DNA from: a virus
Reading direction: 5' to 3' (one strand)
DNA length: 31,395 nucleotides
IMG/VR virus record: IMGVR_UViG_3300020429_000007
Coordinates: 1-31,395 of that record
A program made the position numbers and the translations under genes. Positions 4,822-22,679 of the stretch are shown piece by piece (positions within the stretch are counted from its first letter, which is position 1; each line of letters starts with the position of its first letter). Under the pieces are notes generated by a model that saw nothing but the letters and a program-made list of their open reading frames with translations, searched no databases and was not told where the DNA came from.

Positions 4822-7347
4822 ATGACATCTAGTTTTCAAAGCACAGCTTTTCAATCCTCTGCAAGACCTGTAGATACTTTTGTACGACCTCCCAGTGTTC
4901 TACCTAAAACTGGTGTTGAAGAACTTGCTACTGTCTTATCTTCTATAAATCCTAAACTACAACAATTTATATCATTTCAACTAAATCAAGAAAAACAAAA
5001 ACAAGAACAGCTTGGAATGGAAAAAGTTATACAAGCTAGTAAACCAGAGTTGCAAAAAATTATAAGTCAAGTAAAAAAACAAGATGGTTCTAAAGCTGCA
5101 AGACAACTTATTGGTAGTAATATCTTTTTTAGAGCAGGTGTAGAAAAACAATTAGCTAAAACTCTTGGGTCTTTTACAGAAACAAAAGCAAAAACATTTT
5201 TTGATAATTACACAATACAAAAACAACTTAATGATGGCACTGTTGTAGATATACCATTAGAGCAATATGATATTGATTCACCAGAATTTCAATCTGCTTT
5301 AGAAGAATTTAATCAGTCTTCTAAAAGTGATACCAAAGGTATAAGACAATTATATATAAGTGAATTTTTCTTACCTCAACGAAGCAAAGCTTTAGAAAAA
5401 ATACATATAAATCATAAAAAAAATCATAATGAATATAAAGTTCAAAATGCAGAACAAGGTATTCAATATTCTTTAAAATTAGGGTTTTTAAATATAGACG
5501 ATAACCAAGAAAAAATAGATGAAGGACTTATTGATAATCCAAATAATTTATCAGGTATTGATATATCAAGAAATGCTGTGCAAGAAACTTTACAGGATTT
5601 TGTTGATAATGGTCTTACAGAAGCAGTTTCACCTTCAAGTATGATAGAAATTGTTAAAGATACAGCTAATAGTATATTTTTAGAAAATGAAGATAATAAC
5701 TTAGATGGATATGACGCTGTAAATGATTTTTTAAAATTTGCTGGTGAATTACAAGTCGGACCAAGACAAATAAAAAAAGATGGTACTTTAAAAGAAACAA
5801 AGCTTAAAGACTTTTATCAAGAAGATATTAGAAAACTAAGAGTTGATTTATTAAATGCTAGTGAAAAGTTTAGAGATGAAGAAGAAAGAGATGCTATTGA
5901 AAATAGACAAAAGATATTTCTTGATGAAATAAAACAGTATGGTTTCTTTCAAGTTGAAGATGAAAAAGTAAATAGAAACAGACTTAATAATCTTGCTGAG
6001 CTTTATCCAGAAGAACTAGATTTCTTAAAAGATAAAATTGAAATTGAAGATTTTAGTAGAGATGATTGGTTTAGAAACTTTGAAAATGATTTAAGATTTA
6101 AAGGAGTTTATGATACGAACCCTTCTAGGGCATACACAGAATTAATTAAATTTGAAAAGTCATTAGGTGTAACGATTACAGATGAAGACAAAAGAAATTT
6201 AGATCGACTAAAAAATGAAATAGAAGAAACTTTAGGTAAAGGATTAAGAACAAATAGAAGCACAGAGATATTAAATAATTTAAAAACAGCAAAAGATATG
6301 ATTGGGGAAAAAGACGTAAGAGGTATTATTACTTTAGGAAAAGAAGAAACAGCAAATTTTTATGATTTAGAAAAAAGATATGTTGATAAAATTAGAGAAA
6401 TAGAAAGTGATCTAACTAAAACAACAGAAGAAAGAAATGAATTAATAAAAGAAGAAACTATTAAATTATTTGTTGATGCTAAAAAAATAAAAACAGGTGG
6501 ATATGATCCTACTGGAATTATGGCTGAAGTTGATAAGCGTTTTAAAGAATTTCAAATACAAAAAAACAATAACAATCCTTTTATTCAAGATAAGCAAGAT
6601 AAAAAAACTGGTGCTGAATTATTCTTTGGTGGTAGAAAAAATAATTTTGAAGGCGGTGCATTTAGCGAAGGAGGTTTTACAACAGTTGATATAGTTTCTG
6701 GTGATACTCTATCTGGTATTGCAAATGATTTAGATACTTCCGTTGAAGCAATTATGAAAGCAAATAATATGACTGATACTAATATTCAAATAGGTGATGT
6801 CTTAGTTATACCAGAAGGTATTACTGACCCTAATAAAGTAGATGCTCCTAACTTTGATATGAATAAATTAATTACAAGTAGTGACCACCCATTTAATCCT
6901 GTTAGAGAAAAACATAATTTTCAAGTCATTTATAATATTGCCAAAGACATAGGTATAAAATATCCCGAACTTGTAGCTGCACAAGCTATGGAAGAAACAG
7001 GTTATGGTAAAGATCAATCAGCAGATAACAATTTCTTAGGTCTTAAGGCTACATCTTCAGAGGTTGCAAGAGGTCAATCTGAAAGAAAGATGACTACTGA
7101 AGATAGAGGTCAAGGTAGAAAACCAGAAGTAGCAGACTTTAAAACATTTAATAATATCAGAGAAATGATGATGCAATATAAAAAAGAGTGGAATGATAAT
7201 TTCTTAGGCAGAAAAGGCATAGCAAATGCAGACAGTATTGAAGAAGCAATTAAAATGCTACAAGCTGAAGATTATGCAACTAATAAAGATTATGATAAAA
7301 ATGTATTAAGCATTATTAGTCGTGCCACTAGAGAAGGTTGGTTTTAA
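4822..7347 (+). CDS. gp15-like internal virion protein with C-terminal LysM and glucosaminidase domains
   Basis: An 841-residue protein. Residues 1 to about 600 are charged and mostly helical, as in T7 gp15, an ejected core protein of the trans-envelope channel. Residues about 622-667 form a LysM peptidoglycan-binding domain (SGDTLSGIANDLDTSVEAI, NNM, then IQIGDVLVIPEG). Residues about 690-841 match the FlgJ/mannosyl-glycoprotein glucosaminidase family, with the probable catalytic Glu in AQAMEETGYG (about residue 724) followed by NNFLGLKA. It should cleave peptidoglycan glycan strands during DNA entry. In T7 the murein-cleaving domain is a transglycosylase at the start of gp16, so here the lytic function seems to have moved to another core protein and another fold. 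The stop-TT-ATG junction upstream (TAATTATG) recurs in this genome. Confidence 0.82.
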   Translation: MTSSFQSTAFQSSARPVDTFVRPPSVLPKTGVEELATVLSSINPKLQQFISFQLNQEKQKQEQLGMEKVIQASKPELQKIISQVKKQDGSKAARQLIGSNIFFRAGVEKQLAKTLGSFTETKAKTFFDNYTIQKQLNDGTVVDIPLEQYDIDSPEFQSALEEFNQSSKSDTKGIRQLYISEFFLPQRSKALEKIHINHKKNHNEYKVQNAEQGIQYSLKLGFLNIDDNQEKIDEGLIDNPNNLSGIDISRNAVQETLQDFVDNGLTEAVSPSSMIEIVKDTANSIFLENEDNNLDGYDAVNDFLKFAGELQVGPRQIKKDGTLKETKLKDFYQEDIRKLRVDLLNASEKFRDEEERDAIENRQKIFLDEIKQYGFFQVEDEKVNRNRLNNLAELYPEELDFLKDKIEIEDFSRDDWFRNFENDLRFKGVYDTNPSRAYTELIKFEKSLGVTITDEDKRNLDRLKNEIEETLGKGLRTNRSTEILNNLKTAKDMIGEKDVRGIITLGKEETANFYDLEKRYVDKIREIESDLTKTTEERNELIKEETIKLFVDAKKIKTGGYDPTGIMAEVDKRFKEFQIQKNNNNPFIQDKQDKKTGAELFFGGRKNNFEGGAFSEGGFTTVDIVSGDTLSGIANDLDTSVEAIMKANNMTDTNIQIGDVLVIPEGITDPNKVDAPNFDMNKLITSSDHPFNPVREKHNFQVIYNIAKDIGIKYPELVAAQAMEETGYGKDQSADNNFLGLKATSSEVARGQSERKMTTEDRGQGRKPEVADFKTFNNIREMMMQYKKEWNDNFLGRKGIANADSIEEAIKMLQAEDYATNKDYDKNVLSIISRATREGWF

Positions 7348-15440: not shown

Positions 15441-15800
15441 ATGCTAAAGAAAGTTTTAACACTATCTGCTGCGTCTGTAGCACTTAGCGTTCCAGCTTAT
15501 GCAGGATTCTATCTAAACCCTGAGTTTAACCAAACCAACGTAGGTTCTGAGTGGGGTGGTAATGCAATAGACCTTCACATTGGTTATGAGAACACTGTTG
15601 GAGAGAATGGATCGTTCTATCTACAAGGTGGTCCTAGTTTCATCAATCCTTCTGTAGGAGATTCTGACACTAAGCTTTCTGGTAAAATTGGTGGTGGATA
15701 TGATCTAAGCGATAAATTAAATGCTTATGGTGAGTTCGCTGTTGTAACAGATGACGTTAATACATACGGAACTAAGGTTGGCTTGAAGTATAGCTTCTAG
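15441..15800 (+). CDS. Exported small beta-barrel / porin-like outer membrane protein
   Basis: 119 residues with a clear signal peptide: MLKK, the hydrophobic VLTLSAASVALSV, then a signal peptidase I site PAYA/G. The mature 98 residues alternate polar and non-polar residues, end in an aromatic residue (VGLKYSF, the C-terminal Phe of outer membrane proteins) and carry strands such as FYLQGGPSF and KLSGKIGGGYDLS. This fits a small outer membrane barrel or one repeat unit of one. I recall similar small porin-like proteins in marine cyanomyoviruses; that is memory, not a search. An 80-base leader separates it from the virion genes, and the DNA is visibly richer in GC than the preceding genes, consistent with separate acquisition. 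Confidence 0.7.
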   Translation: MLKKVLTLSAASVALSVPAYAGFYLNPEFNQTNVGSEWGGNAIDLHIGYENTVGENGSFYLQGGPSFINPSVGDSDTKLSGKIGGGYDLSDKLNAYGEFAVVTDDVNTYGTKVGLKYSF

Positions 15801-15901
15801 TCATCATACTTAACGTGACATATAGAGGTGCAATAGCCATTACAGACACAAAGGTTATAATGGTAACAGGCACTAATGCCTTTAAAAATGCATCTCTAAT
15901 C

Positions 15902-16117
15902 ATGTTAAATAAAATTTCTTCTATCTTATCTATCGTATCGTTTGTTATCAGCATTTCAACTTTAGGTGGAGCTTATGCAGGATATCGTTACTTAACCAGC
16001 CCACAGTTTGAAAAGATGATGATGGAAAAGGTTATGGGTAAAGTATCAGGACTCATGCCAAAAGCATTAGATAACGCAATGCCTAGCAGCACTGGTATAT
16101 CTATACCTAAGTTTTAG
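15902..16117 (+). CDS. Small single-pass membrane protein of the exported cassette
   Basis: Read from ATG 15902 this is 71 residues: MLNK, a hydrophobic segment (ISSILSIVSFVISISTLGGAYAGYRYL, about residues 4-30), then a helical tail ending in SSTGISIPKF. A larger frame is open to ATG 15860 or GTG 15815. I prefer 15902 because it places the membrane segment right after a short basic N-terminus. No Shine-Dalgarno site decides the matter. The stop overlaps the GTG start of the next gene (TAGTG), so the two are coupled. The shared IPK text at the end of this protein and the start of the next (SIPKF, then VPKITIP) suggests a functional pair. The function is unknown; I recall similar pairs in marine cyanomyoviruses. 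Confidence 0.6.
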   Translation: MLNKISSILSIVSFVISISTLGGAYAGYRYLTSPQFEKMMMEKVMGKVSGLMPKALDNAMPSSTGISIPKF

Positions 16118-16794
16118 TGCCAAGTATAAAAGTACCGAAGATAACGATACCAACTGTTGATATTCCTTCTGTTCCTTTTGTCACTGAATTTGTTTTAACA
16201 GGTGTGCAACCTGCCTGTGATTTAGTTGATAGAGATCTGAAGATAACACAAAATCCAACTATAGTTTTTTATAACCGTAAGCAATATGCAACCTGTCCTC
16301 AAGGACCGATAACTGCTACTGCACCTGTTGAAGAGGAGAAAACTACTGCACCAAAAGCAGAAAGACAAAGAATTAGATCTATTGTTTACGATCCAAATGA
16401 CACAATAGAAACAGAAAGCTCATCAAAATATTCATCAGGCATAAAACTGAATGGTGCATTTATGCCACCAAAGGATGATGATAAGGATGAGCAGGAACCA
16501 CCACCATGTCCTGACTTATCAAGAGTGCTACCAGTTGGAAGTTTTACATCAGATTTAAGAACAGAACGTATAAAAGAATATAAAAGAGCAGATAATGGAT
16601 ATGATTGCATACCAATCCTTGAAGAAGTCACTTTCCTTAAATCGGTATTACCAACGCCTGCTGCTGCTCTTAATGTTGTTGCTGTGTCTTTCATTGCTGC
16701 CAGTACTCCACTTCTTTTACCTATCGTGAAATCTGCAAGCAAGACAATATTTAAGAAAATAATTGCTAAATTTAATAAGGGCAAGAAGGATTAA
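16117..16794 (+). CDS. Proline-rich protein with C-terminal membrane anchor
   Basis: 225 residues starting at GTG, overlapping the previous stop by one base. The N-terminus is a Pro/Val/Ile/Lys repeat (PSIKVPKITIPTVDIPSVPF). The middle is acidic and Pro-rich, with PPKDDDKDEQEPPPCPDLS at about residues 126-145. The C-terminus has a hydrophobic segment (about residues 186-208, ALNVVAVSFIAASTPLLLPI) followed by a strongly basic tail (KKIIAKFNKGKKD). This fits a tail-anchored membrane protein with a long extended domain; sidedness is uncertain. Five cysteines are present. There is no recognised enzyme motif. It is the last + strand gene before a rho-independent terminator. Confidence 0.62.
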   Translation: MPSIKVPKITIPTVDIPSVPFVTEFVLTGVQPACDLVDRDLKITQNPTIVFYNRKQYATCPQGPITATAPVEEEKTTAPKAERQRIRSIVYDPNDTIETESSSKYSSGIKLNGAFMPPKDDDKDEQEPPPCPDLSRVLPVGSFTSDLRTERIKEYKRADNGYDCIPILEEVTFLKSVLPTPAAALNVVAVSFIAASTPLLLPIVKSASKTIFKKIIAKFNKGKKD

Positions 16795-16862
16795 AGGTCT
16801 GTGTTCGACTTGCCCATAAAATATTATTAGTTAAGATAAGTTTGTTCCAAAAATAAATCGTA

Positions 16863-17501
16863 TCAACCACCTTTTTCTGGGTTATTAGGTGGTTTTTTTA
16901 TTTCATGAGTATGAGGTAATATCTGATTTGGAATTGTAGTAAGAACAATATTTCTACAAGATATAGCATCATCTCCTACAAACTTAATACCTTCTTTCAG
17001 CATGGTTGCACAGACTTTAGCACGATTAAGATTAACCTCTAAACGCTTTGCTTCTAACATAAACTCCTGTGTCTTTCTGTAAGCCTGTGCAGCCTTCAAA
17101 CATTCATTGTTAAACCTTTTACCTAATGGAACTTGTAAGCTTATAGTCGCTCCATAAGATAGATTATGGTTTGTCTGATCTATTCTTTCCTGTTCTGCAA
17201 CATATAGAATACTTCCTGGGTTAAGCAACTGGCCTGTATCGCTGTCCGTTGCAGTGTCATATATATTAGTTCGTGATGTAGTGATTCTTGGAGTGTTATA
17301 CCCTTCTCCCTTAGTAACAAAAGGAGTGAAAGCCAATGTCGGTAACTGACATTGTATTCCGTTTGAAAATCTATGAGTTGGGAAGTTTCCATTTATTGTT
17401 TGATATCCATTATTAATCACTGTTCCCTGTGAAGAACTGCTAGGTGAGCTTATTGTGGTGTTTGCATATACAGGTGTAGAACATAATAAAGCTACTGAAA
17501 T
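16863..17501 (-). CDS. Exported protein of unknown function, last gene of the opposite-strand operon (start uncertain)
   Basis: The frame is open from ATG 17660 to the stop, but its first 50 codons overlap the upstream gene out of frame and look like noise. Real protein text seems to begin near a signal peptide, NAISVALLCSTPVYA/N, whose hydrophobic core lies right at the stop codon of the upstream gene. The coordinates given use an in-frame ATT (17499-17501), two codons before that overlap ends. GTG 17627 and ATG 17660 are the alternatives. The mature part (about 190 residues) has TTISSPSSSSQGTVINNGYQ, FTPFVTKG, and a basic helix LEVNLNRAKVCATMLKEGI. It has four cysteines after the signal peptide. 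I recall homologues in marine cyanomyoviruses but no known function. Confidence 0.6.
   Translation of the reverse strand: MSVALLCSTPVYANTTISSPSSSSQGTVINNGYQTINGNFPTHRFSNGIQCQLPTLAFTPFVTKGEGYNTPRITTSRTNIYDTATDSDTGQLLNPGSILYVAEQERIDQTNHNLSYGATISLQVPLGKRFNNECLKAAQAYRKTQEFMLEAKRLEVNLNRAKVCATMLKEGIKFVGDDAISCRNIVLTTIPNQILPHTHEIKKPPNNPEKGG
16865..16899 (+). terminator. Rho-independent terminator inside the convergent gene's 3' end
   Basis: AACCACC (16865-16871) pairs perfectly with GGTGGTT (16888-16894), and the stem runs into a T tract to 16899. It terminates + strand transcripts about 70 bases after the Pro-rich gene. The same bases encode the last residues of the opposite-strand gene ending at 16863 (…KKPPNNPEKGG). 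On the - strand the hairpin is not followed by a T-run, so it should act in one direction only. Confidence 0.8.
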
Positions 17502-17917
17502 AGCGTTACAGAGTCTTGCACAGTTTCTATAGTTTGATTTCTTGTGATGATTGATACTGCGTCTAGCCCTGGAGCTAGAAAGTTTTCCATTATTGAAAAG
17601 TCTGATGAGCCTGGAATCATCTCCCACTGAGGCTTGGTAGGTAGATCTGGTGTCACCCATTGAAAGCTAACCTTTCCTGTGTTTTGACTTGTAGTATATG
17701 TGGCATCAGGTGATATGACAGAGCCTTCCTTAACACGAATGTTTGTTCCAGAAACACTGTAGCTATATCCTGTCCTATAGTTTTCAGTGACAATAGTTTC
17801 ATTGATAGTAGAAACACTTTTGCTTGTACTTTGCATCTGATTTGCACTGAACCTAGGAGTGGTAGCCTGTGCATACGAACTATGAAAAGCTATAAACAAA
17901 AGCAACAACCATCTCAT
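17492..17917 (-). CDS. Exported protein of unknown function, third gene of the opposite-strand operon
   Basis: 141 residues from ATG 17917, which overlaps the previous stop by one base (TGATG); a TTG one codon upstream is also possible. The N-terminus MRWLLLLFIAFHSSYAQA is a clean signal peptide with cleavage near YAQA/T. The mature part is Ser/Thr-rich with predicted strands: STINETIVTENYRTGYSYSV, then VSGTNIRVKEGSVISPDATY, and a closing ITRNQTIETVQDSVTLFQ. It lacks cysteines and recognisable catalytic residues, so a structural or binding role in the periplasm or at the surface is more likely than an enzyme. I recall similar proteins in marine cyanomyoviruses. Its 3' end overlaps the next gene's frame. 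Confidence 0.65.
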   Translation of the reverse strand: MRWLLLLFIAFHSSYAQATTPRFSANQMQSTSKSVSTINETIVTENYRTGYSYSVSGTNIRVKEGSVISPDATYTTSQNTGKVSFQWVTPDLPTKPQWEMIPGSSDFSIMENFLAPGLDAVSIITRNQTIETVQDSVTLFQ

Positions 17918-18441
17918 CAATCCAAGCCAAGTGTGATTGTTGATTGGAGCGTTGCAGTTGTTCCAGCACCCATGTCAGATAGGTTTACAGTTAAACCTTG
18001 TCCACTATCTAGCGTGATAGCAACAGAACCAGGATCACCACCAGCCACTACCGTATTCTTGCCCAAAAGAGGTAAGGATGGAACTGCCCCATTGGTTACT
18101 GTGGCAGATAACAGGCTTGGAACACTATCAGCTTGGATATAAGATTCTGATACAGAGAAAGCATCACCAGCAGTAGTAATTGAAAAAGAAGTGTCTGCTG
18201 AAACTACTGGAACACCGTTAGATATACCATTGCTACTAAGATTTAAAGATCCTATTCCACCTGCTGTACCATCATTTGGTGTTACATTCGTACCAGCTAC
18301 ACTGATTGAAGCTGCAATCCTTTCTGATGTAGCTGAAGCTGCGACTGTTGAGACTGAAGCTACACTCTGAATACTGTGAGTGATGTCTGCAAAACTAGCT
18401 GTTGGAAATGCCAGTAAAATCAAAGGTAAGAATTTTTTCAT
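17917..18441 (-). CDS. Exported Ser/Thr/Ala-rich protein, second gene of the opposite-strand operon
   Basis: 174 residues starting with a textbook signal peptide, MKKFLPLILLAFPTASFA/D. The mature protein is very low in charge and rich in Ser, Thr, Ala, Gly and Val (SVASVSTVAASATSERIAAS; GNTVV- and TTATLQSTITL-like strands). It contains no cysteine and only two lysines or arginines in the mature chain. This composition suits a secreted beta-rich surface or structural protein. The start overlaps the upstream stop by four bases (ATGA), and the stop overlaps the downstream start, showing translational coupling. Family: unrecognised, apart from a remembered resemblance to cyanomyovirus hypothetical proteins. 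Confidence 0.68.
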   Translation of the reverse strand: MKKFLPLILLAFPTASFADITHSIQSVASVSTVAASATSERIAASISVAGTNVTPNDGTAGGIGSLNLSSNGISNGVPVVSADTSFSITTAGDAFSVSESYIQADSVPSLLSATVTNGAVPSLPLLGKNTVVAGGDPGSVAITLDSGQGLTVNLSDMGAGTTATLQSTITLGLD

Positions 18442-18848
18442 TTTTTCTCTTCTTTTGTGATTTGAGGTTTGCTTGTTATTAATTCGATAGGCTGACGGAT
18501 TACTATAACTTGCTGTCCACCAGTGCCACCATTATAACTATCATTTTGCTGTTCTTCCTTCTTCTTCTTTTTAGCTCCTGTAGCAGCACCAACAGAAACA
18601 CCCCACCCAGCAAGGATGTTTCCTAGAAGTCCAGCAGCGAAGGTACTATCGACTCTAGGTTGATCTGGTATATCCATACCAAATAACCTATTAGGCAGTT
18701 TTACATATCCAAGAGACAAGACTATAAGACACCAAGCTAAGATTGCTCCTTGTGCAGATGTACTCACTAAGAACATTATTTTTTCTTGATAATCAGGTTT
18801 ATCGTCTTCTTTTGTTTCTTGTATCTGTGCAGTTTTTTGTTCTTCCAT
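18438..18848 (-). CDS. Two-pass membrane protein, first gene of the opposite-strand operon
   Basis: 136 residues: an acidic cytosolic-type N-terminus (EEQKTAQIQETKEDDKPDYQ), membrane segment 1 at about residues 24-50 (IMFLVSTSAQGAILAWCLIV), a short loop, membrane segment 2 at about 69-92 (FAAGLLGNILAGWGVSVGAA), then KKKKK and a polar tail. Charges predict both termini inside. Size, two helices and charged termini resemble class II holins, and T7 holin (gp17.5) lies at the equivalent place after the fibre gene, so a holin role is possible. Against this are the opposite strand and three exported partners. It starts just below a divergent intergenic region containing a 10-bp inverted repeat. Confidence 0.62.
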   Translation of the reverse strand: MEEQKTAQIQETKEDDKPDYQEKIMFLVSTSAQGAILAWCLIVLSLGYVKLPNRLFGMDIPDQPRVDSTFAAGLLGNILAGWGVSVGAATGAKKKKKEEQQNDSYNGGTGGQQVIVIRQPIELITSKPQITKEEKK

Positions 18849-18854
18849 ATAAGA

Positions 18855-18894
18855 AAGACTACTTAGTGTGTGAGGATGAGTCTAAAGTAGTCTT
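18855..18894. repeat. Perfect 10-bp inverted repeat in the divergent intergenic region
   Basis: AAGACTACTT (18855-18864) and AAGTAGTCTT (18885-18894) are exact reverse complements separated by 20 bases. The element lies seven bases upstream of the - strand operon start (18848) and 49 bases upstream of the + strand gene at 18944. Neither side is followed by a convincing T-run, so an operator or a leader hairpin of the - operon is more likely than a terminator. Confidence 0.6.
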
Positions 18895-18943
18895 ATTGCA
18901 AATTTAGCAAATATTGATATGTTTGGAAAGACACACAACTTTA

Positions 18944-19243
18944 ATGAAAGACAAAGATTTTTTTCAATTACTTCTTGGTGACCCTCCAACAGAAATAAAA
19001 TTTGAAATTGAATTAAAAATTAGAGAAATACTACAACTTCCTGACCATTTACTAAAAGAACATTGCATTGAATTAGTAAGACACTCAAGACTGCAAGACT
19101 TATTGCTTACTGCTGCCCTTACTCGTGTGTCAGAAGCAGAAGGAAAACTATACAAATTGGAGAATAAATTACAGAAATACGAACAAAGTAGTATTTTCAA
19201 TAAGATTCTCTATATTTTGTTTGGCAAAACAACTAAAAAATGA
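18944..19243 (+). CDS. Small helical protein of unknown function before the terminase genes
   Basis: 99 residues from ATG 18944 (MKDKDFFQLLLGDPPTEIKF). The frame is open ten codons further to TTG 18914, but that start has no support. The protein is almost all helix: an acidic N-terminal helix EIELKIREILQL, a middle LVRHSRLQDLLLTAALTRV, a coiled-coil-like EAEGKLYKLENKLQKYEQ, then a hydrophobic end FNKILYILFG followed by KTTKK. The final segment might dip into a membrane but is too short to span one. T7 has lysis genes near its small terminase, so a lysis role is possible but unsupported. It is the first + strand gene after the divergent promoter region and precedes terS by 28 bases. Confidence 0.6.
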   Translation: MKDKDFFQLLLGDPPTEIKFEIELKIREILQLPDHLLKEHCIELVRHSRLQDLLLTAALTRVSEAEGKLYKLENKLQKYEQSSIFNKILYILFGKTTKK

Positions 19244-21722: not shown

Positions 21723-22679
21723 ATGACATTTACTTCAAAGAAACCAAGAGTAAAAGTAGAGGAAGAAATTCTTAAGGATGTTATCAACGCTCTTGAAAAT
21801 AGGACTTCAGATATTAGTCCTTGGCGTAAGCCTTGGAAGCCTGACAATCAGGGAATACATCAAAACTTCTTAACTGGTCATCATTACACAGGATCTAATC
21901 CAATTATCTTGGAATTATATATGTGGTCTAAAGGTCAAGACCTACCTTTGTGGATAGGTTACGGCCAAGCCAAAGAGCAAGGGTGGGTAGTTAAGAAGGG
22001 ATCTAAAGCTGCAAGAATCTTAAGACCTAACCCCTTTAAGATAGATCTTACTAATGAAGATGGCTCACCTAAACTTGATAAAGAAGGGAACCAAGAATTT
22101 ATTATGAAGGTTAGCTTTAAAGGAGCTACTGTCTTTAATGTTTCAGATATTGAAGGTAAAGACCAAAAGAGCCAAGAAAAATTAGATGCAAAGTTAGCAG
22201 AATTTAAGAATCAAAGTATTAAATCTGCAAGACCTTTAGCACTTAGGTGTAAGGAAGCCTTAGAGCGTCTTATGACATACTCAAAAGGCTTAGAAGGTGG
22301 TTTACATCATGCAGGTGATAGAGCCTTTTATAGGAGCTCTCAAGACCTTGTGAACATGCCAAGAAGGGAATCGTTTGAGAATGATGAAGCCTATCTTGCA
22401 ACCTTGGCACATGAGTTTTCACACTCAACCGCACATAAGACAAGATTAGATTTACCAATAGGTAATGCTTTTGGATCTAAGCCTTATGCCTTGGAAGAAT
22501 TAAGAGCAGAATTTGCAAGCATGTTAATCACTAATAGACTACAAATTAGCTGCGATACTCAGAACCATGTAGCATATTTTGATTCTTGGATTAAAGCTCT
22601 TGATGGTAAAGCATCTAACCTTATGAAAGTATTCTCTAATGCTGTTAAAGCTGCTGATCTTGTAGTAGGTGAGCAGTAA
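21723..22679 (+). CDS. ArdC-like antirestriction protein with zinc metalloprotease domain
   Basis: 318 residues. The N-terminal half matches the ArdC/TraC-type ssDNA-binding domain (DUF1738): helix VINALENRTSDISPWRKPW, then PDNQGIHQNFLTGHHYTGSNPI, WIGYGQAKEQGWVVKKGSK and ATVFNVSDIEG. The C-terminal half is the associated metallopeptidase domain, with zinc motif HEFSH (H230-H234) and the following ALEELRAEFAS (Glu residues 258-263, probable third ligand and family hallmark). ArdC proteins protect incoming DNA against type I restriction and coat single strands. As the first gene of the early region it would be made on entry, which suits a counter-defence role. It ends just before a strong terminator. 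Protective activity is inferred from the family. Confidence 0.85.
   Translation: MTFTSKKPRVKVEEEILKDVINALENRTSDISPWRKPWKPDNQGIHQNFLTGHHYTGSNPIILELYMWSKGQDLPLWIGYGQAKEQGWVVKKGSKAARILRPNPFKIDLTNEDGSPKLDKEGNQEFIMKVSFKGATVFNVSDIEGKDQKSQEKLDAKLAEFKNQSIKSARPLALRCKEALERLMTYSKGLEGGLHHAGDRAFYRSSQDLVNMPRRESFENDEAYLATLAHEFSHSTAHKTRLDLPIGNAFGSKPYALEELRAEFASMLITNRLQISCDTQNHVAYFDSWIKALDGKASNLMKVFSNAVKAADLVVGEQ

Follow-up and report, generated by a model that had tools for sequence, protein, structure and literature searches.

A mobile gene module of marine cyanophages with an out-of-frame overlap under selection and a possible role in opening the host envelope

Between the tail and terminase genes of a 31,395-nt stretch of viral DNA, referred to here as the window, four genes (g1 to g4) run on the reverse strand and are part of a larger unit that includes three forward-strand genes (15441-16794). 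We read this unit as a late, mobile module that breaches the cyanobacterial envelope at lysis, a function that we infer and to which we assign a probability of roughly two in five. The features of the region are as follows, in window coordinates.

15441-15800, + strand: OMP, an outer-membrane beta-barrel-like protein of 119 aa (phrog_417; PF24653, Phage_OMP)
15902-16117, + strand: f568, a small membrane protein (phrog_568; T4-GC 414)
16117-16794, + strand: f570, the converging partner, 225 aa, C-terminal region hydrophobic (phrog_570; T4-GC 234)
16779-16894, no strand: convergent 3' ends of f570 and g4 with a hairpin by each stop codon (16779-16815 on +, 16894-16865 on -)
16863-17660, - strand: g4, a predicted exported protein of 265 aa from ATG 17660 (phrog_848/1755; T4-GC 235)
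17492-17660, - strand: dual-coding stretch formed by the end of g3 and the start of g4 in the -1 frame, with stop avoidance and a K+R excess
17492-17917, - strand: g3, a predicted exported beta-rich protein, 141 aa from ATG 17917 (phrog_650; Pfam DUF6322; T4-GC 236)
17917-18441, - strand: g2, a predicted exported beta-rich protein, 174 aa (phrog_564; T4-GC 237)
18438-18848, - strand: g1, a predicted two-pass membrane protein, 136 aa (phrog_2714/721; Pfam DUF6450; the counterpart of T4-GC 218 of P-HM1)
18851-18926, no strand: divergent g1/p8 intergenic region with a g1-leader hairpin and the imperfect dyad CCAAACATATCAATATTTGCTA
18944-19243, + strand: p8, 99 aa, beside g1 on the opposite strand and adjoining the small terminase gene (phrog_30071)

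The first-pass annotation, made from the sequence alone, had described a reverse-strand operon of one membrane and three exported proteins between tail and terminase genes, and both its location and its make-up are borne out. Profile searches, which that annotation had proposed, gave PHROG matches for all four genes (E 4e-11 to 2e-45), and g1 and g3 additionally passed the Pfam gathering scores of PF20048 (DUF6450) and PF19847 (DUF6322), so that these are genes and not chance open reading frames. The g1 sequence contains two hydrophobic segments, as expected of a small holin-like membrane protein with two predicted transmembrane segments, and its homologue PSSP7_043 is annotated by TMHMM with two transmembrane regions. 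The N termini of g2, g3 and g4 resemble signal peptides and are those originally quoted. The g4 protein begins with a basic extension of roughly 50 residues, followed by a hydrophobic region and a VYA/N cleavage-like site, and carries four invariant cysteines and an HxH motif at its C-terminus. Since g2 also matches phrog_650 (E 2e-6), g2 and g3 appear to be paralogues. The tight junctions are as claimed, with g1 and g2 sharing 4 nt (ATGA) and g2 and g3 sharing 1 nt. A lower AT content than in the neighbouring DNA, also claimed, holds for the immediate flanks (39-41% GC in the module against 34-36% directly alongside) but is not distinctive, because the tail-fibre (13-14 kb) and terminase (19.5-21 kb) regions of the window are at 39-40% GC too.

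Homologues of the module are widespread and linked. A tblastn search with g4 returned 390 phage records, all of them cyanophage or marine/uncultured, while a DNA-level search against phages gave zero matches. Profile searches of viral and genome contigs recovered approximately 170 loci in which, with very few exceptions, the order g2>g3>g4 is kept and converges on two to three forward-strand genes, namely f570, f568 and sometimes OMP, which has a copy in range of the module in 26 of 175 loci. The concern that linked homologues might be lacking elsewhere is thus clearly dispelled. The carriers are T4-like, siphovirus-like and T7-like phages of Prochlorococcus and Synechococcus: g2, g3 and g4 face f570 and f568 in the myoviruses P-HM1, S-TIM5 and S-CAM22, in agreement with the first-pass annotation, which had pointed to similar genes in cyanomyoviruses, and the same arrangement occurs in the 38 kb phage MED4-184, taken as siphovirus-like, and in Marine virus AG-345-A17. 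The position of g1 varies: podovirus and siphovirus types have it at the head of the operon, and most T4-like types have it in the facing unit.

In the myoviruses this cassette is already known. A mobile cluster of hypothetical genes, comprising T4-GCs 218, 219, 234, 235 and 237 and a 'plasmid stability' gene, was reported in 15 of 16 cyanomyoviruses, and a shared function was proposed (Sullivan et al. 2010; PMC3037559). Here g1 corresponds to GC218, f570 to GC234, g4 to GC235, g2 to GC237 and f568, named 'plasmid stability' in annotations, to GC414; the window likewise has g2, g3 and g4 in order on one strand with f570 and f568 converging on g4. GC219 was not among the cluster members identified in the loci. 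It differs from the cyanomyovirus cluster in its T7-like carrier, in the attached OMP gene and in having g1 at the head of the g2-g4 operon instead of in the facing unit. The f568 reading frame of the window opens at GTG 15815, and its homologues begin at the position of ATG 15902. A cellular origin of the module was considered and rejected: the matches in bacterial and archaeal isolate genomes and MAGs carry the T4-like phage cluster and therefore probably represent phage contamination or infected cells. Six such loci (L086-L090 and L092, filed as Lewinella, Formosa, Euryarchaeota, Nonlabens and others) hold the T4-like cyanophage module, probably through phage contamination of the assemblies.

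As far as we found, reduced versions in cultured podoviruses had not been described. Using profiles built from the loci, we detected them in P-SSP7, P-SSP10, P-RSP2, P-SCSP1u and P-SCSP2. In each of the five they occupy the interval flanked by tail fibre genes and terminase genes; P-SSP7 and P-SSP10 carry them in the direction of the genome, and the other three carry them reversed. In P-SSP7, gene 043 matches g1 (E 2e-27), 044 matches g3 (E 4e-10) and 045 matches g4 (E 2e-27). P-SSP7 genes 042-045 and the reverse-strand genes of P-SCSP1u and P-SCSP2 thus share with the window the g1, g3 and g4 homologues, the genomic slot and the out-of-frame g3/g4 overlap, whereas they lack g2, f568 and an adjacent OMP; P-SSP7 differs further in that its genes are all co-directional and its f570 counterpart is weakly similar (E 0.08). 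No trace of the module was seen in the profile comparison with Syn5 and P60, and in P60 the slot is occupied by an endolysin (phrog_181, E 3e-31). In T7, holin 17.5 lies in the same interval, with the spanins just beyond.

The window itself most likely derives from a T7-like Prochlorococcus podovirus, given the closeness of its large terminase (about 88.7-88.8% identity) and RNA polymerase (70.2% identity) to those of phage P-SCSP2. P-SCSP2, a cyanopodovirus of the MPP-C group obtained on MED4, encodes an integrase and produces erratic bursts (PMC9860041); an integrase gene is present in the window as well. In the g4 tree, the window groups with siphovirus-type g4 sequences (support 100/99), and P-SCSP2 and P-SSP7 stand apart (100/100), a result that carries the tool's warning of long branches, although the g4 proteins of the window and P-SCSP2 can indeed be aligned over 46 residues only. 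Replacement of the module explains this discordance with the terminase most simply and supports the exchange between phage families that the first-pass annotation had suggested. The synteny comparison placed the linked module in T4-like, siphovirus-like and T7-like phages. Elsewhere in the window, LysM and glucosaminidase domains occur in the internal virion protein encoded at 4822-7347 (the comparable P-SCSP1u protein has an SLT lysozyme-like domain instead), and an anti-restriction protein (phrog_7245, E 7e-70) is encoded at 21723-22679, downstream of the terminase. Many cyanopodoviruses have a roughly 54-aa protein (phrog_2738/402) encoded next to their terminase genes, with copies at L175 5278-5442, L176 42399-42563 and L178 36665-36835; none was seen in the window.

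The most unusual feature of the operon is the start of g4. The window has no ATG, GTG or TTG close to the g4 signal region, and the ATG at 17660 lies inside g3, so that the two genes share 169 nt, with g4 in the -1 frame. The g4 frame is open back through at least the last 142 nt of g3 in 168 of 170 related loci. Per gene, the overlap frame contains 0.01 stops against 3.19 expected per 49 codons, which indicates that the overlap is under selection; for the last 45 codons of 15 divergent representatives, no stops were observed where synonymous shuffling predicts 33.5 +/- 5, and the +1 frame of the same representatives had 58 stops against 43 expected. The g4 portion encoded by the overlap is basic (K+R 10.5 against 6.3 expected, D+E 2.0 against 3.0). 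In most of the 168 loci the first g4 start is an ATG at -163 to -175, usually with an in-frame stop 0-11 codons upstream, and this combination indicates, from sequence comparison, that g4 initiates within g3 and that a basic extension of about 50 residues precedes the hydrophobic region and AxA-like site. Conservation of the ATG proves little by itself, because it sits in a conserved Trp codon context of g3, and the case for selection rests on stop avoidance and charge because synonymous-site constraint over the overlap is inconsistent, lower at medium divergence and higher among close pairs. A programmed -1 frameshift from g3 into g4 was rejected, in favour of initiation at the ATG, as in-frame stops occur 0-11 codons before the first start in almost all loci and the frame is open only downstream; a non-AUG start (ATT) near the hydrophobic region was also weighed and is unnecessary. 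P-SSP7 and P-RSP2 have a 121-nt version of the overlap, with GTG as the first possible start. In two loci (L134 and L164) g4 is detached and has an ordinary signal peptide with its own ATG, which supports g4 as a separate exported protein. The conserved 169-nt overlap of two putatively exported proteins is a clear example of overprinting under selection, and it accounts for the conflicting g4 starts given in annotations.

The timing of expression was approached through the late promoter motif published for cyanophages, NATAAATA (PMC2984593). We searched the T4-like loci for [ACT]TAAATA, which covers NATAAATA and the CTAAATA variant, within 60 nt upstream of each gene. It precedes g2 in 54 of 78 loci and g1 in 66 of 74, mostly 27-35 nt from the ATG, and is rare elsewhere in these loci (0-10% for other module genes, 62 of 489 for other open reading frames). 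Both convergent units therefore look late, and the module is probably late-expressed in the T4-like relatives. In P-SSP7, transcription proceeds from left to right through three gene classes (PMC9860041), and the module genes of that phage lie in the tail fibre-terminase part of the genome, which belongs to class III (tail and packaging). Within the window, no late promoter could be recognised.

Structure prediction gave models of low confidence. AlphaFold2 built mature g3 with two strands of more than 20 residues (pTM 0.39) and mature g4 with strands of more than 20 residues and a 41-residue helix (pTM 0.32). The structure search proposed at the outset returned cyanophage relatives, including P-SSP10 and P-SSP3, among predicted viral structures; Foldseek found no PDB match with E <0.001, the best non-significant ones being podovirus tail tubes (E 0.016 and 0.12). 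Tail tubes and oligomeric beta-barrel pores are frequent in the PDB list, which amounts to no more than a hint. A sequence search of the PDB found no match; among outer-membrane efflux (TolC-like) and pore-forming families, OEP appeared only at E 0.1 in 2 of 93 members; and alternating hydrophobicity, as a test for amphipathic beta-strands, was not above chance. A likeness to pores or TolC based on the long beta-hairpins, being suggestive only, was set aside.

Late, envelope-directed, cyanophage-specific and located in a lysis slot, the module is best read as a device for breaching the envelope. The g1 protein would reside in the inner membrane as a holin-like protein or membrane anchor, and g2, g3 and g4 would be exported through Sec to form a beta-rich complex in the periplasm or outer membrane, in which g4 may be stabilised by disulphides. 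Together with f570, f568 and, in some phages, the small OMP, the complex would disrupt or perforate the outer membrane once virions are ready, with peptidoglycan cutting supplied by other proteins, such as virion glycosidase domains. In favour of lysis are the P60 endolysin and T7 holin found in the slot, together with the lack of the module in Syn5 and in P60, the late promoter motif of the T4-like loci, the combination of a two-pass membrane protein, exported proteins and an optional OMP, and the confinement of g4 to cyanophage or marine/uncultured records. Furthermore, a Pfam scan of 20 unassigned proteins of the lytic phage P-SCSP1u revealed no free endolysin, holin or spanin, the only domain of this kind being the virion SLT domain, and this result also counts for lysis.

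Other observations count against it. PHROG and Pfam searches found no endolysin in or beside the window module, and g2-g4 have no lipobox and no cysteine at their cleavage-like sites of the kind expected in a spanin. The weak models, the lack of a significant PDB match and strand amphipathicity at chance level also weigh on that side, as does the neighbourhood in T4-like phages, where hsp20, hli or polymerase genes and not recognised lysis genes adjoin the module. MPP-A podoviruses infect Synechococcus without it, and late promoters would suit virion or maturation roles too. Compared with the lysis cassettes of T7 and lambda, the module is alike in its genomic slot, its small two-pass membrane protein, its putatively exported partners and a late expression suggested by the promoters of T4-like relatives; it differs in having no endolysin, Rz/Rz1-type spanin or lipoprotein, and the sequences are unrelated. 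The stronger proposal that this is a new lysis machinery of Gram-negative phages, in which Sec-exported beta-rich proteins and a two-pass protein form an outer-membrane pore in place of spanins, we regard as rather unlikely. If true, a single cassette would be common to three tailed-phage morphotypes of marine cyanobacteria, and a conserved out-of-frame overlap would link two of its proteins and give g4 its long basic signal extension. When marine cyanophages open their hosts, by a route that is largely unassigned, much of the carbon that Prochlorococcus and Synechococcus fix is set free, and a cassette present in hundreds of cyanophages of three morphotypes, in a lysis slot and late as judged from promoters, is a concrete candidate for this route.

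A non-lysis, auxiliary role, in which an outer-membrane channel or support would sustain the infected cyanobacterium during the late phase, seems unlikely to us. The confinement of the module to phages of picocyanobacteria, the OMP companion (PF24653) and the hli, psbA and hsp20 genes adjoining T4-like copies would suit envelope upkeep or transport, whereas the proteins have no transporter similarity, the podovirus copies occupy the holin/endolysin slot, and the reduced podovirus version dispenses with g2, f568 and the adjacent OMP. The first-pass annotation favoured envelope modification, superinfection exclusion or lysogenic conversion, in connection with the integrase, and placed lysis by a holin with periplasmic partners second; the lysis reading, conditional as it is, turns out to fit better. 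Exclusion or conversion, now improbable, in which the exported proteins would alter the cell surface and block further phages, would account for the exported proteins and OMP, the integrase of the window, the integrase and erratic bursts of the closest isolate, P-SCSP2 (PMC9860041), and a possible operator dyad upstream of g1, but many carriers are T4-like cyanophages with late promoters on both units, and the P-SSP7 genes lie in the class III region. A virion-associated role, such as that of an accessory adhesin or entry protein, for proteins assembled via the periplasm is suggested by the nearby tail-fibre genes, the late promoters, the beta-rich proteins and the tail-tube matches. It seems very improbable to us: signal peptides are unusual among virion proteins assembled in the cytoplasm, and those matches fall below significance.

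Apart from this envelope-breaching interpretation, the non-coding parts of the region contain several minor elements. The g1-leader hairpin has a z of -2.9, and the dyad CCAAACATATCAATATTTGCTA at 18905-18926 occurs once in the window; 39 of 68 relatives have its word CAAACATA upstream of g1 (inverted in L008), and the conserved dyad is a candidate operator or promoter. In the window, a scan for sigma-70-like promoters gave sites no more numerous than in shuffled sequence, and a search for a repeated phage promoter yielded nothing clear. Of the two hairpins at the convergent 3' ends (z -1.9 for 16779-16815 and -0.3 for 16894-16865), only the first beats most shuffles. The 3' ends of g4 and f570, separate in the window, overlap in antisense in 67% of 166 loci. 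This overlap, present in most T4-like loci at lengths of up to 230 nt (for example, L004 9599-9828), may help to maintain the convergent order.
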